64,000 nucleotides of DNA from Nitrospinota bacterium (GCA_016208975.1 JACQXA010000004.1:1427015-1491014), one strand, 5' to 3'; positions 13,423-20,742 are shown, counted from the first letter of the stretch. Program-made: numbers and translations. The notes: generated from the letters alone by a model not told the origin.

Positions 13423-13519
13423 CACCGATCCCGCATTCCCTGTATAATCTTGCCTCAAGATAGGCGAGATGCGGCCCCTCGCATTGGGCCGCGGGATAGT
13501 CATTTTCAAGCGAGGCTGT

Positions 13520-14347
13520 ATGAAAGAAGACCCAATTGTTAAACCCCTCCTGCAAAACCGTCACTTAAAGCGTCTTAAAGAGACCGTCAAACCCCTGCGC
13601 GACGGCATTACGAACCATCCTGTGTATTCGGCGGTGAAAACCATCGAAGACCTGAAAACGTTCATGGCCTGCCATGTGTTCGCCGTGTACGATTTCATGT
13701 GCCTGTTAAAGGCCCTGCAAAGCTCCCTTACCTGCGTGAGCGTCCCCTGGGTTCCCAAGAGCGAAAAACTGATCCGGCGGTTCATCAACCATATGGTGCT
13801 CGAAGAGGAGACCGATGAGGACGCCCGGGGCGGTTACGCGAGCCACCTGGAGCTTTATATCTCCGCCATGGAGCAGTGCGGAGCCGATACTGACCCCATA
13901 AACAGTTTTCTGGACATGGTTGGGCGGGGCGTTCCGCTGATGGATGCGCTGGACAAATGCGGCGCTCCGGAGCCATCCCGCCAGTTCGTTTCCACAACAT
14001 GGAAAATAATAGAGACCGGCGAGACCCACAGGATAGCCGCCGCGTTCACTTTCGGCAGGGAAGACCCTATCCCGGACATGTTCCGTTCGCTCATCAAGGA
14101 GCTTCGCGCCAAGTTCCCTGGCAGGCTGGACATATTCGAGTTCTATCTGGAACGGCACATCCACCTGGACGAGGATTTCCACAATCCAATGGCAAGCCTT
14201 CTGGTGACACGGCTTTGCATCGAGGATCCGGTGAAATGGAACGAGGCGGCCCAAACCGCCGAGACCGCCATCATGGCCCGGAAAGCCTTGTGGGACGGAG
14301 CAAGGGGGCTTATAGAAGAGAACGCCGCCGCTACCGCAGGGAAATAG
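13520..14347 (+). CDS. DUF3050-type haem-oxygenase-like protein
   Basis: The 275-residue, mostly helical protein matches the DUF3050 family, which has a haem-oxygenase-like fold. Histidine and acidic residues are spaced through the helices (CHVFAVYDFM, HMVLEEETDEDA, SHLELYISAM, ERHIHLDEDFHNPM), as expected for a non-haem di-iron site. This reading as a di-iron oxidase is inference from the fold and residues. The ATG at 13520 is favoured because CGAGG lies just upstream; a longer frame opens at 13469 without family-like sequence. A TATAAT hexamer near 13442 could be its promoter. Confidence 0.7.
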   Translation: MKEDPIVKPLLQNRHLKRLKETVKPLRDGITNHPVYSAVKTIEDLKTFMACHVFAVYDFMCLLKALQSSLTCVSVPWVPKSEKLIRRFINHMVLEEETDEDARGGYASHLELYISAMEQCGADTDPINSFLDMVGRGVPLMDALDKCGAPEPSRQFVSTTWKIIETGETHRIAAAFTFGREDPIPDMFRSLIKELRAKFPGRLDIFEFYLERHIHLDEDFHNPMASLLVTRLCIEDPVKWNEAAQTAETAIMARKALWDGARGLIEENAAATAGK

Positions 14348-16240: not shown

Positions 16241-16391
16241 GGTAGTGTCCCAGTTTGAAAGTACAGGGGAGATTCTTCGCTTACGCTCAGAATGACAATA
16301 TAAAAGCCGTTGATAACATTGTCATCCTGAGTGAAGCGCAAGCGAAGTGAAGGATCTGTCTATTATTTGACATTCAAACTGGGACACCAGC
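16241..16391 (-). mobile_element. MITE-like palindromic element, copy 3
   Basis: The left end is GGTAGTGTCCCAGTTTGA and the interior is nearly identical to copy 2. The right end is decayed (GGGACACCAGC). A near-perfect direct repeat, CCCGGGCG at 16233-16240 against CCCGGGCC at 16392-16399, borders the element. It occupies part of the 510-base region between tRNA-Leu and the multihaem cytochrome gene. Confidence 0.85.
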
Positions 16392-16621: not shown

Positions 16622-17908
16622 ATGAGGACTTCTACCGCGGTTATCCTGGCGGTTACCATTGTGTCCGCCGTGGGGATGTTCACCGCCTTCGCGGGGGCTG
16701 GCCGCACACAGTTTCTCCCGGCTCCGCTGGCCTCGGCCCATGCCCGGTTCGGTTATGGATGCCCGCTATGCCACGAACCCTGGCGGGGGCCGACCCAGAC
16801 TATGTGCCTGAAATGCCATGCCCGGGGGCTTTATCAGGATTCGCACCCTTCCGGGAAACTGGCCAGTTCCGCTAAAGCCCAAACCCCCCCGGAACTTCGC
16901 GGATTAACCTGCATGGACTGTCACGGTGAGCATCGCCCCACAGCCCCCAAAGCCTATACCGGCCCCGACGGGCTTTGTGAAAAATGCCACGAGCCCGGCC
17001 AGATAAACCAGGATCACTCCCGGTTTTCCGGAGACTCCTGCGTAAATCCCGGTTGCCACACCTATCACTCCAGCATGAAGCCGGACAAGTTGGCGGAAAG
17101 CGGCAACGTTACCCTTAAGGCCATAACGGAAATTTGCCCCAAGCCCGCGCCCGCCAAACAATACGCCATCACGGCCGAAGAGGTGGTGAAGATGCGCTCC
17201 AGCCGGTTTTTCAAGGATAACCTTGTGGTGGCGGCGCAATACGAGATAAGCGCCCATTATGGCACCTCGGCCACTTGCGCCAAGTGCCATGCGGCCTACT
17301 TGGGAGTGGTGGACGAAAAACCGGAGATAACCGTATGCGCCCCCTGCCATGAAACCCAGGTGGACACTTATGTCACCGGCAGACATGGCGCGCCGGACAT
17401 GGCTGTTTCCCCGGTATTCAGTGATAGCGCACGGATGGGATGCGGCGCCTGTCACGACGCGCACAACCTGCGGCTGGAGAAGGCGGGTGGCGAGGCATGC
17501 CAAACCTGCCATAAGGAAACCCATGCGGCCAATTTCGAGAAGTCCGGCCACAACAGGTATTTAACCGACCCCGTGTTCGCTGAAAAAGCGCTAAAGGGTG
17601 TAAATTGCGCCGGTTGCCACATGCCAAGGCTCATGGAGCTTAACGGCCACACCGACCATAACGAGACCGTCTCCGCCTCGTCGAAAGAGCGGATGGCGCT
17701 GGATGTGTGCTCCCGGTGTCATGGCCTGGGGTTCTCGTTGCAAAGCCTGTACGACGCCGAGGTGGTAAAGTCCGCATTCACCTACAGGCCCCTGCTATCG
17801 GTGGAAGGGTTGACATACCTTTTCGAACTGGCGGAAAAGAGGCAAAATATAAATAGTATGGCTGGTGGCCCGCAAACGGCCCCGGTTGAAGTATCCGCTG
17901 GAAATTAA
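16622..17908 (+). CDS. membrane-anchored or periplasmic undecahaem cytochrome c
   Basis: The 428-residue protein begins with a signal or anchor helix (residues 5-26) and contains ten CxxCH haem motifs, from CPLCH at C47 to CSRCH at C363. There is also one expanded CX4CH motif (CVNPGCH, C140), so up to eleven c-type haems. Additional histidines, for example in YHSSMKPD and GHNRY, can serve as distal ligands. It has no recognisable catalytic motif of nitrite or hydroxylamine enzymes, so an electron-wire role is the safer reading. The start ATG has a clear GGGGGAG site. Two more redox genes follow at 4 bases and then with an 8-base overlap, which implies one operon and one electron-transfer complex. 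Confidence 0.88.
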   Translation: MRTSTAVILAVTIVSAVGMFTAFAGAGRTQFLPAPLASAHARFGYGCPLCHEPWRGPTQTMCLKCHARGLYQDSHPSGKLASSAKAQTPPELRGLTCMDCHGEHRPTAPKAYTGPDGLCEKCHEPGQINQDHSRFSGDSCVNPGCHTYHSSMKPDKLAESGNVTLKAITEICPKPAPAKQYAITAEEVVKMRSSRFFKDNLVVAAQYEISAHYGTSATCAKCHAAYLGVVDEKPEITVCAPCHETQVDTYVTGRHGAPDMAVSPVFSDSARMGCGACHDAHNLRLEKAGGEACQTCHKETHAANFEKSGHNRYLTDPVFAEKALKGVNCAGCHMPRLMELNGHTDHNETVSASSKERMALDVCSRCHGLGFSLQSLYDAEVVKSAFTYRPLLSVEGLTYLFELAEKRQNINSMAGGPQTAPVEVSAGN

Positions 17909-17912
17909 AACA

Positions 17913-19409
17913 ATGGACGAGTTCAGCAACCTGGAAGAAATGGCGGCCTTCCTTGAGAAAGCCCCGTTCTTTCATGGCGCGCCCCGCAAAGCGCTGGAAG
18001 ACCTGGTAATAGACGGCGACATAATCCACATCCCCGCCGATGAAGTGATCATCCACGAAGGTGATTACGAGATGACCTGCTATGTCACCTTGAGCGGCCG
18101 GTTCAAGATTGAGGTGACAGATAAGGAGACCGGCAAAAAACGGCAGGTGCGAATCATAGGCGCCGGGGAGATAGTGGGGGAGATGTCGGTGCTTACGGGC
18201 AACCCCCGGTTCGCGGAAGTGTCATGCCTCGACGAGGCGGTGGCCCTCAGGATCCACCGGGAGGAGTTTCTGCGGTTTCTGGACGCCTCTCCGGAAATAA
18301 AGGAACGGATAGACGGGGATTACAGGAAACGCACCCTCGCATCGGCCTTGAGGAAGCTAAACGTTTTCTCACAGGTGGATGACGATTCCATGAACGCCCT
18401 GGCCGAGAAAGTGAAGCTTGTGACCCGGCAGAAGAACGATGTTATCTTCGCCAGTGGAGACGAGGCGGACGCGTTTTACCTCATCCGCGACGGATTCGTT
18501 AAAATGTCCCGTCCCATAAACGTGGACGAGCAATCCTTTTTCGACTCCCGGTTCAACAAGGCTTCATCCACCCTTTTGGAAAAGGCAGGCCCCAAGGAGT
18601 TCATAATGGCCTACCTGGGAGGGGGGTCCTATTTTGGCGAGAGGGCGCTATTCCACAAGCGCAAACGGGTGGCCACGGCCACTGCCATCACACGGCTGGA
18701 GCTTGTGATGATAGAAAAGGCGGAGTTCGAGGAGCTGATGCGCCGCCACCCGCTAGTGGCCGACAAGCTGAAAGCCCTGGCCGCCACCCGGTACTCCGAT
18801 GAGAGCGTTGTGCGCAACGCCGCCAGCCAGGATGTGCTTACCTGGATAGAAAGCCACGACATCCTCGGGGCCGACACCATGTTAATCCTGGATTTGAACC
18901 AGTGCGTCCGGTGTCTCCATTGCATCGAGACTTGCGCCGACCTGCACGAGGGTGTGACGCGGATAACCCACAACGGCATCCGCTATAAGAATATTTTGAT
19001 TCCCACCTCGTGCAGGCATTGCCGGGAACCCACCTGCATGATCGGTTGCCCCACCGGCGCCATCCAGCGGGATGTGAATGGCGAGGTGTTCCATACGGAC
19101 GCTTGCATAGGTTGCGGCAACTGCGCGAAGCGTTGCCCCTTTGGCAACATAAGCATCGTAAAGGCGTTGGAAGGCTCCGGCGAGATGGGGCCCAGGGGCC
19201 AGTTGGGCCGGTGGATGAAAAGAGTGTTCGGAGTGGTGGATATGGAGCCTTCCGATGGCGCCGAGCGGCGCCGTGCGGTGAAGTGCGACATGTGCAAGGG
19301 GTTCGAGTATATGGGGTGCCAGCACAATTGCCCCACGGGCGCCATCAAAACCATTGTTCCATCGGAATTCTTCGCCAAAATGGCGGTGAAAATGGGCGCC
19401 CATGACTGA
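17913..19409 (+). CDS. fusion of two cNMP-binding domains with a four-cluster ferredoxin module
   Basis: The 498-residue protein has two cyclic-nucleotide-binding domains (about 10-125 and 130-285). The second keeps the phosphate-binding cassette FGERALFHKRKRVATATA; the first has VGEMSVLTGNPRFAEV. Then come 16 cysteines in four [4Fe-4S] motifs starting at C331 (CVRCLHCIETC), C367 (CRHCREPTCMIGCP), C398 (CIGCGNCAKRCP) and C458 (CDMCKGFEYMGCQHNCP). This is the pattern of DmsB/NrfC-type electron-transfer subunits. No DNA-binding domain is present, so the nucleotide domains probably gate electron flow rather than transcription; that is inference. I saw no signal peptide, so the protein should be cytoplasmic. 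It overlaps the cytochrome b gene by 8 bases. Confidence 0.88.
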   Translation: MDEFSNLEEMAAFLEKAPFFHGAPRKALEDLVIDGDIIHIPADEVIIHEGDYEMTCYVTLSGRFKIEVTDKETGKKRQVRIIGAGEIVGEMSVLTGNPRFAEVSCLDEAVALRIHREEFLRFLDASPEIKERIDGDYRKRTLASALRKLNVFSQVDDDSMNALAEKVKLVTRQKNDVIFASGDEADAFYLIRDGFVKMSRPINVDEQSFFDSRFNKASSTLLEKAGPKEFIMAYLGGGSYFGERALFHKRKRVATATAITRLELVMIEKAEFEELMRRHPLVADKLKALAATRYSDESVVRNAASQDVLTWIESHDILGADTMLILDLNQCVRCLHCIETCADLHEGVTRITHNGIRYKNILIPTSCRHCREPTCMIGCPTGAIQRDVNGEVFHTDACIGCGNCAKRCPFGNISIVKALEGSGEMGPRGQLGRWMKRVFGVVDMEPSDGAERRRAVKCDMCKGFEYMGCQHNCPTGAIKTIVPSEFFAKMAVKMGAHD

Positions 19410-20217
19410 AGAGGCTAAATATCTACTGGCGCCGTTCATCGGCGTGTTGGCGGTGGTGGCCCTTGCTACCTGGCTGGAGCCTTTCGAGCCTCCGTTCGGA
19501 TTCTTCGTCCATACTCCCGGCGCGCCGCTGGGCTGGAGCGCGTTGGCCCTGGGCGTTATGTCGGTGGCATATTCCGCCCGGAAACGGGTGTTTTTGCAAG
19601 GGCTCGGCCCCCTTATCTACTGGAAAGGCGCCCATGTGGCCGCCGGATACATATTCGTTGTGCTGTTTGTCCTGCACGCCAACGGCAAGGTGGGGCTTGG
19701 CGCCCAGTTCTTGCTTACAACGGTTTCGGCGGGAATAGTTATCACCGGGCTGTGGGGGATTATAAGGCAAGGACATGTTCCCCAGCTTATGACCAAAACG
19801 CTGGTGAACCCCGTTTATAAAAGCGAACTGGCCGACGCGGTGAATGTCGCGCTAAAAGAGATATCCGAAATGCTGGAAGGGCGGAGCAAAAGGTTTGACG
19901 AGGTTTATCAACGTCACATCCTGCCGTTCATCTCCATAAAATACCCCACGTTGAGCCATCACAAGGCCATGCTTCAAAGGTGTTTCGGCCCCGCCACGCT
20001 GGACCCCAACGCCGCCGTGATAGACGTGGCGGACCTGGATGTCCATGAAAAAGACATCTTTTACTCCATCGCCGAAAAAGCCGTGGACGCCCTTGAGATA
20101 CGGGTTAGCCAGACCCACCAGCGCCAGATGAACCGCTGGCTGTTATGGCATATCGGCCTGTCGCTCATCATCGCCGTGGCGCTTTTCTTCCATGTATTGG
20201 CGGCGTTTTATTATTGA
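19402..20217 (+). CDS. di-haem cytochrome b-like membrane protein
   Basis: The 271-residue protein has membrane helices near residues 7-25, 45-58, 74-93, 103-122 and 247-270, with a soluble loop of about 120 residues between the last two. Histidines H78 and H92 in one helix, and H250 and H264 in the last, are each 14 apart. That is the spacing expected if two helices ligate two b haems on opposite sides of the membrane. It resembles cytochrome b561 or ferric-reductase-type proteins, without an exact family match. In context it could carry electrons between the cytoplasmic Fe-S protein and the outer cytochrome c. Confidence 0.75.
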   Translation: MTEEAKYLLAPFIGVLAVVALATWLEPFEPPFGFFVHTPGAPLGWSALALGVMSVAYSARKRVFLQGLGPLIYWKGAHVAAGYIFVVLFVLHANGKVGLGAQFLLTTVSAGIVITGLWGIIRQGHVPQLMTKTLVNPVYKSELADAVNVALKEISEMLEGRSKRFDEVYQRHILPFISIKYPTLSHHKAMLQRCFGPATLDPNAAVIDVADLDVHEKDIFYSIAEKAVDALEIRVSQTHQRQMNRWLLWHIGLSLIIAVALFFHVLAAFYY

Positions 20218-20271
20218 GGGGGGGGCGGTAGCCGCGCTAGACTGGATTAACCGTTGGAGAGTAATTGGAAG

Positions 20272-20496
20272 ATGCCCAGGAAGAAAAACCCACGAACATT
20301 TACCGTGCTTATCGAACAGGATGAAGACGGATATTTTGTGGCTACCGTCCCGTCTTTAAAGAGCTGTTACACACAAGCCAAAACCCTTGAAGAGCTTTAT
20401 CCACGCATAAGGGAAGTGATCGCCTTATGTATGGAGGAGGAAAAACCGGTTCAAATGAAGTTTATAGCGGTGCAACAGATGGAAGTTGTAGCGTAG
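20272..20496 (+). CDS. hicB: HicB-like antitoxin
   Basis: The 74-residue protein has the HicB partial RNase H-like fold: FTVLIEQDEDGYFVATVPSLKSC, then a helix (TLEELYPRIREVIALCMEEE). No C-terminal DNA-binding domain is present, so this is the short form. A hicA-like gene follows 9 bases later. This is the less common order, antitoxin first. I used the ATG at 20272, with GGAGAG upstream; a TTG at 20254 is possible. Confidence 0.8.
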   Translation: MPRKKNPRTFTVLIEQDEDGYFVATVPSLKSCYTQAKTLEELYPRIREVIALCMEEEKPVQMKFIAVQQMEVVA

Positions 20497-20505
20497 GTAT
20501 CGTCT

Positions 20506-20742
20506 ATGCCTATGATGCCAGTCATTACCTCGAAGGTGATGACTTCTTTCCTCCTAAGTAAGGGCTTTGCCCTTATGCGCCAGAAGGGAAGTCATAAATT
20601 TTTCCGTCATCCTGATGGACGCACAGCTACAGTTCCCGAACATAAGGGGGAAGACTTGGGCCGGGGAATCACCAAAAAGATTCTCAACGACGCTGAATTG
20701 AACCAGGAGGATTTCCTGAAATGGCAAAACAAAAAGAAATGA
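20506..20742 (+). CDS. hicA: HicA-like mRNA interferase toxin
   Basis: The 78-residue protein matches HicA/YcfA: SKGFALMRQKGSHKFFRHPD, with the catalytic histidine in GSHKFF, then VPEHKGEDLGRGITKKIL. HicA toxins bind and cut mRNA as a double-stranded-RNA-binding-like domain, and HicB neutralises them. Its last 22 bases overlap the start of the next, interrupted reading frame, whose ribosome site CAGGAGG lies inside hicA. Base use is more AT-rich from here to about 21.4 kb than in the neighbouring genes, which suggests an acquired segment. Confidence 0.85.
   Translation: MPMMPVITSKVMTSFLLSKGFALMRQKGSHKFFRHPDGRTATVPEHKGEDLGRGITKKILNDAELNQEDFLKWQNKKK

Follow-up and report, generated by a model that had tools for sequence, protein, structure and literature searches.

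Three closely packed genes of a Nitrospinota bacterium (host genome of 2.97 Mb) raise the question of whether a multihaem cytochrome c, a ferredoxin-like protein with tandem CNB domains and a di-haem cytochrome b make up one electron-transfer complex, and whether the current through it could be switched by a nucleotide. The genes, here A, B and C, lie in a window of 64,000 nucleotides, the whole stretch of DNA that was analysed, and follow one another head to tail on the + strand, with a gap of 4 bases between A and B and an overlap of 8 bases between B and C, a tight packing already pointed out in the sequence-only reading and borne out here. Their features are (window coordinates, strand, description):

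16622..17908, +, gene A, c-type cytochrome with 11 haems and a membrane segment at the N-terminus (428 aa; ten CXXCH and one CX4CH)
17913..19409, +, gene B, tandem CNB domains and four-[4Fe-4S] ferredoxin (498 aa; PF00027, Fer4 families)
18168..18224, +, predicted nucleotide site A of B, residues 86-104, EIVGEMSVLTGNPRFAEVS, with E90, S92 and R99
18627..18689, +, predicted nucleotide site B of B, residues 239-259, SYFGERALFHKRKRVATATAI, with E243, A245 and R252
18903..19331, +, the four [4Fe-4S] motifs of B, C331 to C473 (16 Cys)
19402..20217, +, gene C, di-haem cytochrome b of five helices, with helices 4 and 5 separated by a helical insert on the cytoplasmic side (271 aa)

Composition, linkage and fusion of the three genes

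The count of 11 haems claimed for A holds, as ten CXXCH sites are accompanied by one CX4CH (C140-x4-C145-H146), the latter retained among order-level relatives. A matches the Cytochrom_c3_2 and C7 domains in the family scan and was the sole member of its kind found in a genome search for its homologues.

B carries two PF00027 domains (E 1.3e-37; 128 bits versus a family cut-off of 27.5) and matches Fer4 families as well. Its cysteines fall into four motifs (331/334/337/341, 367/370/375/379, 398/401/404/408 and 458/461/469/473), and all 16 are invariant across 42 relatives, while neither a signal peptide nor a DNA-binding part was found in the sequence or by family scan, in agreement with the two cNMP domains, 16 cysteines and missing DNA-binding part described before. 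Sixteen cysteines in four [4Fe-4S] motifs are the mark of DmsB/NrfC/HycB-type subunits; as to the arrangement of the clusters, the earlier label of a 'DmsB-like' module stands, although among solved proteins the module is most closely related to HycB3 of a hydrogen-dependent CO2 reductase.

In C, the candidate haem-ligand histidines proposed from the sequence, H78/H92 and H250/H264, were recovered and are all invariant among relatives (68/68, 68/68, 68/68 and 67/67), and W74, G116 and W246 are close to invariant. The family scan matched C to no curated family; it gave no match to NrfD, as would mark an NrfD/Qrc/Cbc-type membrane subunit, and a Ferric_reduct (PF01794) score of 12.6 versus a cut-off of 28 bits places C outside that family too, a weak match to which was seen in only 2 of 27 relatives. 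A profile search with C returned no convincing solved relative, Foldseek with the model of a natural B-C fusion returned, among the matches listed, only CNB domains and did not place the fold of C, and a search of a viral library gave no useful match.

B is not confined to this genome: within the phylum, whole-genome searches found it in 15 of 24 genomes, frequently as multiple copies, and at least 80 further B loci, from about ten phyla, came from scanning species genomes. We used six-frame translation as a guard against gene-calling errors and counted C where it lay within 2 kb on the same strand. Adjacency, on which the idea of a complex had been staked beforehand, is far from rare: among the B loci listed, which were found via B (the Nitrospinota set partly via C) and whose make-up reflects the choice of genomes sequenced, C adjoins in 94 of 103, a multihaem cytochrome in 92 and both in 89. 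For Nitrospinota-type loci the numbers are 25/25 for C and 24/25 for the multihaem cytochrome, a few of these being one locus counted twice (e.g., L049/L059 and L060/L171), with L047 standing apart and L055 a distant member. Among the matches listed, the unit occurs in Nitrospinota, Nitrospirota, Acidobacteriota, Planctomycetota, Verrucomicrobiota, Lentisphaerota, Myxococcota, SAR324, and Alpha- and Gammaproteobacteria, a recurrence across phyla that argues against a chance arrangement; in Rubripirellula obstinata and Rhodopirellula sp. SM50, for instance, B is found with a C-type protein and a 10-haem cytochrome. C is absent from nine listed B loci, five of them at a contig edge and four true orphans with intact flanks (L069, L071, L074 and L096), and the exception within the phylum is the nearest family relative G001, where A is on a separate contig from B-C. 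One contig holds two identical, inverted copies of the locus (L040, G005:C15), from either a recent duplication or an assembly artefact.

B and C have also changed together, their pairwise distances over 62 loci giving a mirror-tree correlation of r = 0.90 versus a permutation maximum of 0.23, and in six loci (L061, L065, L067, L077, L083 and L088) they are a single polypeptide, which is strong evidence for their physical association. Adjacency, fusions, mirror tree and invariant haem ligands strongly support the route from cytoplasm to periplasm that had been proposed for the operon, and A, B and C very probably constitute one electron-transfer unit.

Around the operon, a HicB-like antitoxin (PF15919) and a HicA-like gene lie directly 3' of C (20254-20742, +) and are probably an ordinary toxin-antitoxin pair, and a few kb upstream (13469-14347, +) is the gene of a DUF3050 protein with weak similarity to iron-containing redox enzymes of the haem-oxygenase-like kind. 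A short interspersed sequence around GATTCTTCGCT...CTCAGAATGACA (window 16262-16390), present in inverted copies, recurs in the genome of a relative (L178:590-670). Promoter and terminator scans gave little above chance.

Predicted nucleotide sites and ligand supply

The AF2 model of B has a mean pLDDT of 87.4 and is confident across both CNB domains. The top solved folds found with Foldseek are the tandem CNB domains of PKA and PKG; the individual domains match, but the inter-domain arrangement of PKA does not (rmsd 9-17 Å). The sequence-only reading had singled out the second site as complete, which it is (E243...R252), but the first cassette, GEMSVLTGNPRFAEV (E90...R99), is equally complete. 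Nine residues separate Glu from Arg in both (E90-R99 and E243-R252), as in the cassettes of PKA RI-alpha. At site A, Glu is kept in 90 and Arg in 91 of 98 aligned relative stretches, with G89 and E90 invariant and R99 nearly so across 42 relatives. G242, E243 and R252 of site B are invariant across 11 Nitrospinota-type proteins, in which both sites are intact, and site B is degenerate in most phyla other than that of the window.

In PKA RI-alpha, R209/R333 together with A202/A326 discriminate cyclic-nucleotide from nucleoside binding, and in trypanosome PKA an Arg combined with a small residue at the 202/326 position leads to a preference for the cyclic nucleotide over the nucleoside (PMC10959531). 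The equivalents in B are R99/R252 and S92/A245, such that the combination of Glu, Arg and small residue occurs twice. As for the ligand, six class III cyclases are encoded in the genome, with partner domains that include CHASE2, dCache/HAMP, and FHA or DUF5939, and such cyclases, several of them with sensory domains, can provide it. Judged by sequence and model, B is likely to bind a cyclic nucleotide: the cassettes keep their Glu and Arg in a confidently modelled fold, and the idea of a gated complex thereby comes through the check for a binding pocket.

CNB domains are, nevertheless, able to serve as inert scaffolds, and many domains of this fold bind nothing. The electron-transfer complex would then be the same, with the tandem pair acting in dimerisation or docking, without ligand or switching, as could be read from the degeneracy of site B in most phyla and from an interdomain geometry unlike that of PKA; yet the near-invariance of Glu and Arg in site A over about ten phyla, the integrity of both sites in the clade of the window and the presence of cyclases in the genome make this unlikely. 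Poorer still are the chances that the domains bind some other ligand (c-di-GMP, a nucleoside, haem/CO or NO) or act as a redox sensor, signalling to a partner how reduced the clusters are, with no gating: CRP-fold proteins with other ligands are known and a GAF/HD-GYP protein with tandem CNB domains adjoins one relative, but the nine-residue E...R spacing and the small residue at 92/245 match cyclic-mononucleotide sites.

Other combinations of these modules were seen along the way. The protein just mentioned (L170:4509-6962), which combines GAF and HD-GYP with a tandem CNB pair of its own, lies directly before a B-C-A set of the nearest family relative and is a second-messenger enzyme with the same sensor module as B. 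In L085:7230-9233, an FHA domain at the N-terminus of B would give the ferredoxin one more signalling input.

Proposed electron input, route and direction

The natural B-C fusion L061 is modelled with a mean pLDDT of 88.5 and a pTM of 0.85, with five long helices and a helical insert between the fourth and the fifth. Since B is cytoplasmic and its C-terminus leads into C, the N-terminus of C would be cytoplasmic as well, and the two helices with the histidine pairs, 3 and 5, would both run outward. This would put H78/H250 on the cytoplasmic and H92/H264 on the periplasmic side, with the conserved R60-K61 loop and the insert in the cytoplasm, and A, predicted to be sited at the inner membrane with B and C, would be the periplasmic end of the wire. 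With cofactors, topology and direction taken from homology, a ladder would result in which a cytoplasmic donor supplies the four [4Fe-4S] clusters of B with electrons, which move to the inner haem b (H78/H250) and on to the outer haem b (H92/H264) of C, and leave through the haems c of A for periplasmic or outer-membrane partners.

The nature of the donor is suggested by the relatives. Among the loci listed, 58 of 78 B loci that are not of the Nitrospinota type have a flavoprotein, either encoded alongside or as a fusion with B or A (61 flavoprotein loci minus L056, L057 and L176, which have no B), so that in most relatives NAD(P)H would feed the clusters. The statement that no catalytic subunit is encoded is accordingly true of the window locus, but does not extend to these relatives with their NAD(P)H flavoprotein module; a Mo/W catalytic subunit, as in molybdopterin oxidoreductase complexes of the DMSO reductase type, was not found beside A-B-C in the ORF list for 10-27 kb of the window, inspected by eye and with a family scan of selected neighbours. 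In eight loci, B itself has an N-terminal NAD(P)H/FAD oxidoreductase domain, recognised by a Pfam match in L064 and L071 and by paired dinucleotide motifs in L063, L069, L070, L072, L076 and L096. In four others (L062:10248-13259, L066:10276-14097, L067:10196-13918 and L077:10528-13857), the partner cytochrome is one polypeptide that combines FHA domains (identified by eye in L066) and a membrane segment with six to eight haems, [4Fe-4S] motifs for two clusters and an oxidoreductase of the NAD(P)H/FAD type; hydropathy indicates a second membrane segment after the haems in L066 and L067, where the chain would thus span the membrane twice. An NAD(P)H reductase of the FNR type, equipped with a [2Fe-2S] domain, is found nearby in 42 loci. 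It is often accompanied by cytochromes with four and five haems and by a protein of 480 residues, which has no family match and, from its sequence, looks like an outer-membrane barrel. At Nitrospinota-type loci no flavoprotein adjoins B, and the donor of the window complex must therefore act in trans; the genome does encode a separate flavoprotein from this superfamily (L180), but without a tie to B.

Two loci, L056 and L057, combine a C-family cytochrome b with a [4Fe-4S]-flavoprotein and are devoid of nucleotide domains, which fits a nucleotide module that was added as a regulator. In both (L056:7904-14836 and L057:7786-14839), the cytochrome b is near cytochromes with 20, 16 and 38 haems. 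Seven-gene operons of Planctomycetes, Verrucomicrobia, SAR324 and Proteobacteria (L133:3-10579, L089 and L097) encode a 5-haem cytochrome, a barrel-like protein, an FNR reductase, a 4-haem cytochrome, B, C and a 10-haem cytochrome, and are candidates for a full envelope-crossing route.

A mainly inward flow, from periplasmic haems to cytoplasmic ferredoxin or NAD(P)+ as a nucleotide-controlled intake for lithotrophy, would suit the lithotrophs among Nitrospinota (PMC10839748) and wires of this make-up are reversible in principle, but it is improbable, as the membrane potential opposes it, nitrite-level donors cannot reduce low-potential clusters without energy input, and the reductase modules attached in relatives resemble input dehydrogenases. 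We favour, with a probability of roughly 0.5, the reading of A-B-C as an outward electron conduit, fed by NAD(P)H or ferredoxin and controlled by a nucleotide. The tandem CNB domains would sense a cyclic nucleotide made by the class III cyclases and allosterically switch or tune the flow; for gating as such, the odds appear evenly balanced. Outward electron flow dissipates membrane potential and reductant, as in the tightly regulated NADPH oxidases, and because of this drain an outward wire ought, plausibly, to be regulated.

Relation to known systems and significance

Inner-membrane complexes of the Cbc and Qrc/Nrf type have a layout like that of A-B-C, with co-encoded genes for a multihaem cytochrome of the periplasm, a ferredoxin subunit with four clusters and a membrane subunit; in contrast to these, B has nucleotide domains and C is a di-haem cytochrome b, not NrfD. 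NADPH oxidases and ferric reductases would share with A-B-C a regulated outward transfer from NAD(P)H over two stacked haems, with histidine pairs about 14 residues apart, but C scores far below the Ferric_reduct cut-off, its flavin module is separate, [4Fe-4S] clusters intervene and the acceptor is a multihaem cytochrome. The regulatory subunits of PKA/PKG and the CRP family resemble B in their tandem CNB domains with complete phosphate-binding cassettes, whereas the output of B is an iron-sulfur electron-transfer module, and not a kinase or a DNA-binding domain. Taken as a member of Cbc/Qrc/Nrf, of the NADPH oxidases or of PKA, A-B-C in each case lacks a defining feature.

Two further systems are less close. 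With the Mtr/Pio porin-cytochrome conduits, A shares stretches of the DmsE-type decahaem family that score well below the cut-off, but the predicted place of A is the inner membrane, alongside B and C, and no MtrB/PioB barrel was matched in the genome. The Geobacter ExtHIJKLMNOPQS cluster likewise unites multihaem cytochromes, a porin and a membrane cytochrome b, yet an identity with it was rejected, as a Rieske Fe-S subunit and a bc-type cytochrome b are described there and a nucleotide domain is not mentioned (PMC5877670).

A search of the open full-text literature found no description of an A-B-C complex, of CNB-ferredoxin or CNB-flavoprotein fusions, or of these Nitrospinota cytochromes, and to that extent upholds the earlier claim that no complex of this make-up has been characterised. 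There is a real chance that gating could make A-B-C a new class. Tentatively, and at somewhat less than even odds, we propose a widespread class of respiratory complexes in which a cyclic nucleotide would directly open or close a transmembrane conduit, i.e., a ligand-gated electron channel under protein-level and not transcriptional control. In Shewanella, CRP, the cAMP receptor, has been tied to extracellular electron transfer via transcription (e.g., PMC4417206). If our proposal is true, A-B-C would represent a direct, protein-level switch on an outward electron wire, and such a gated wire would be a control point for electroactive bacteria.
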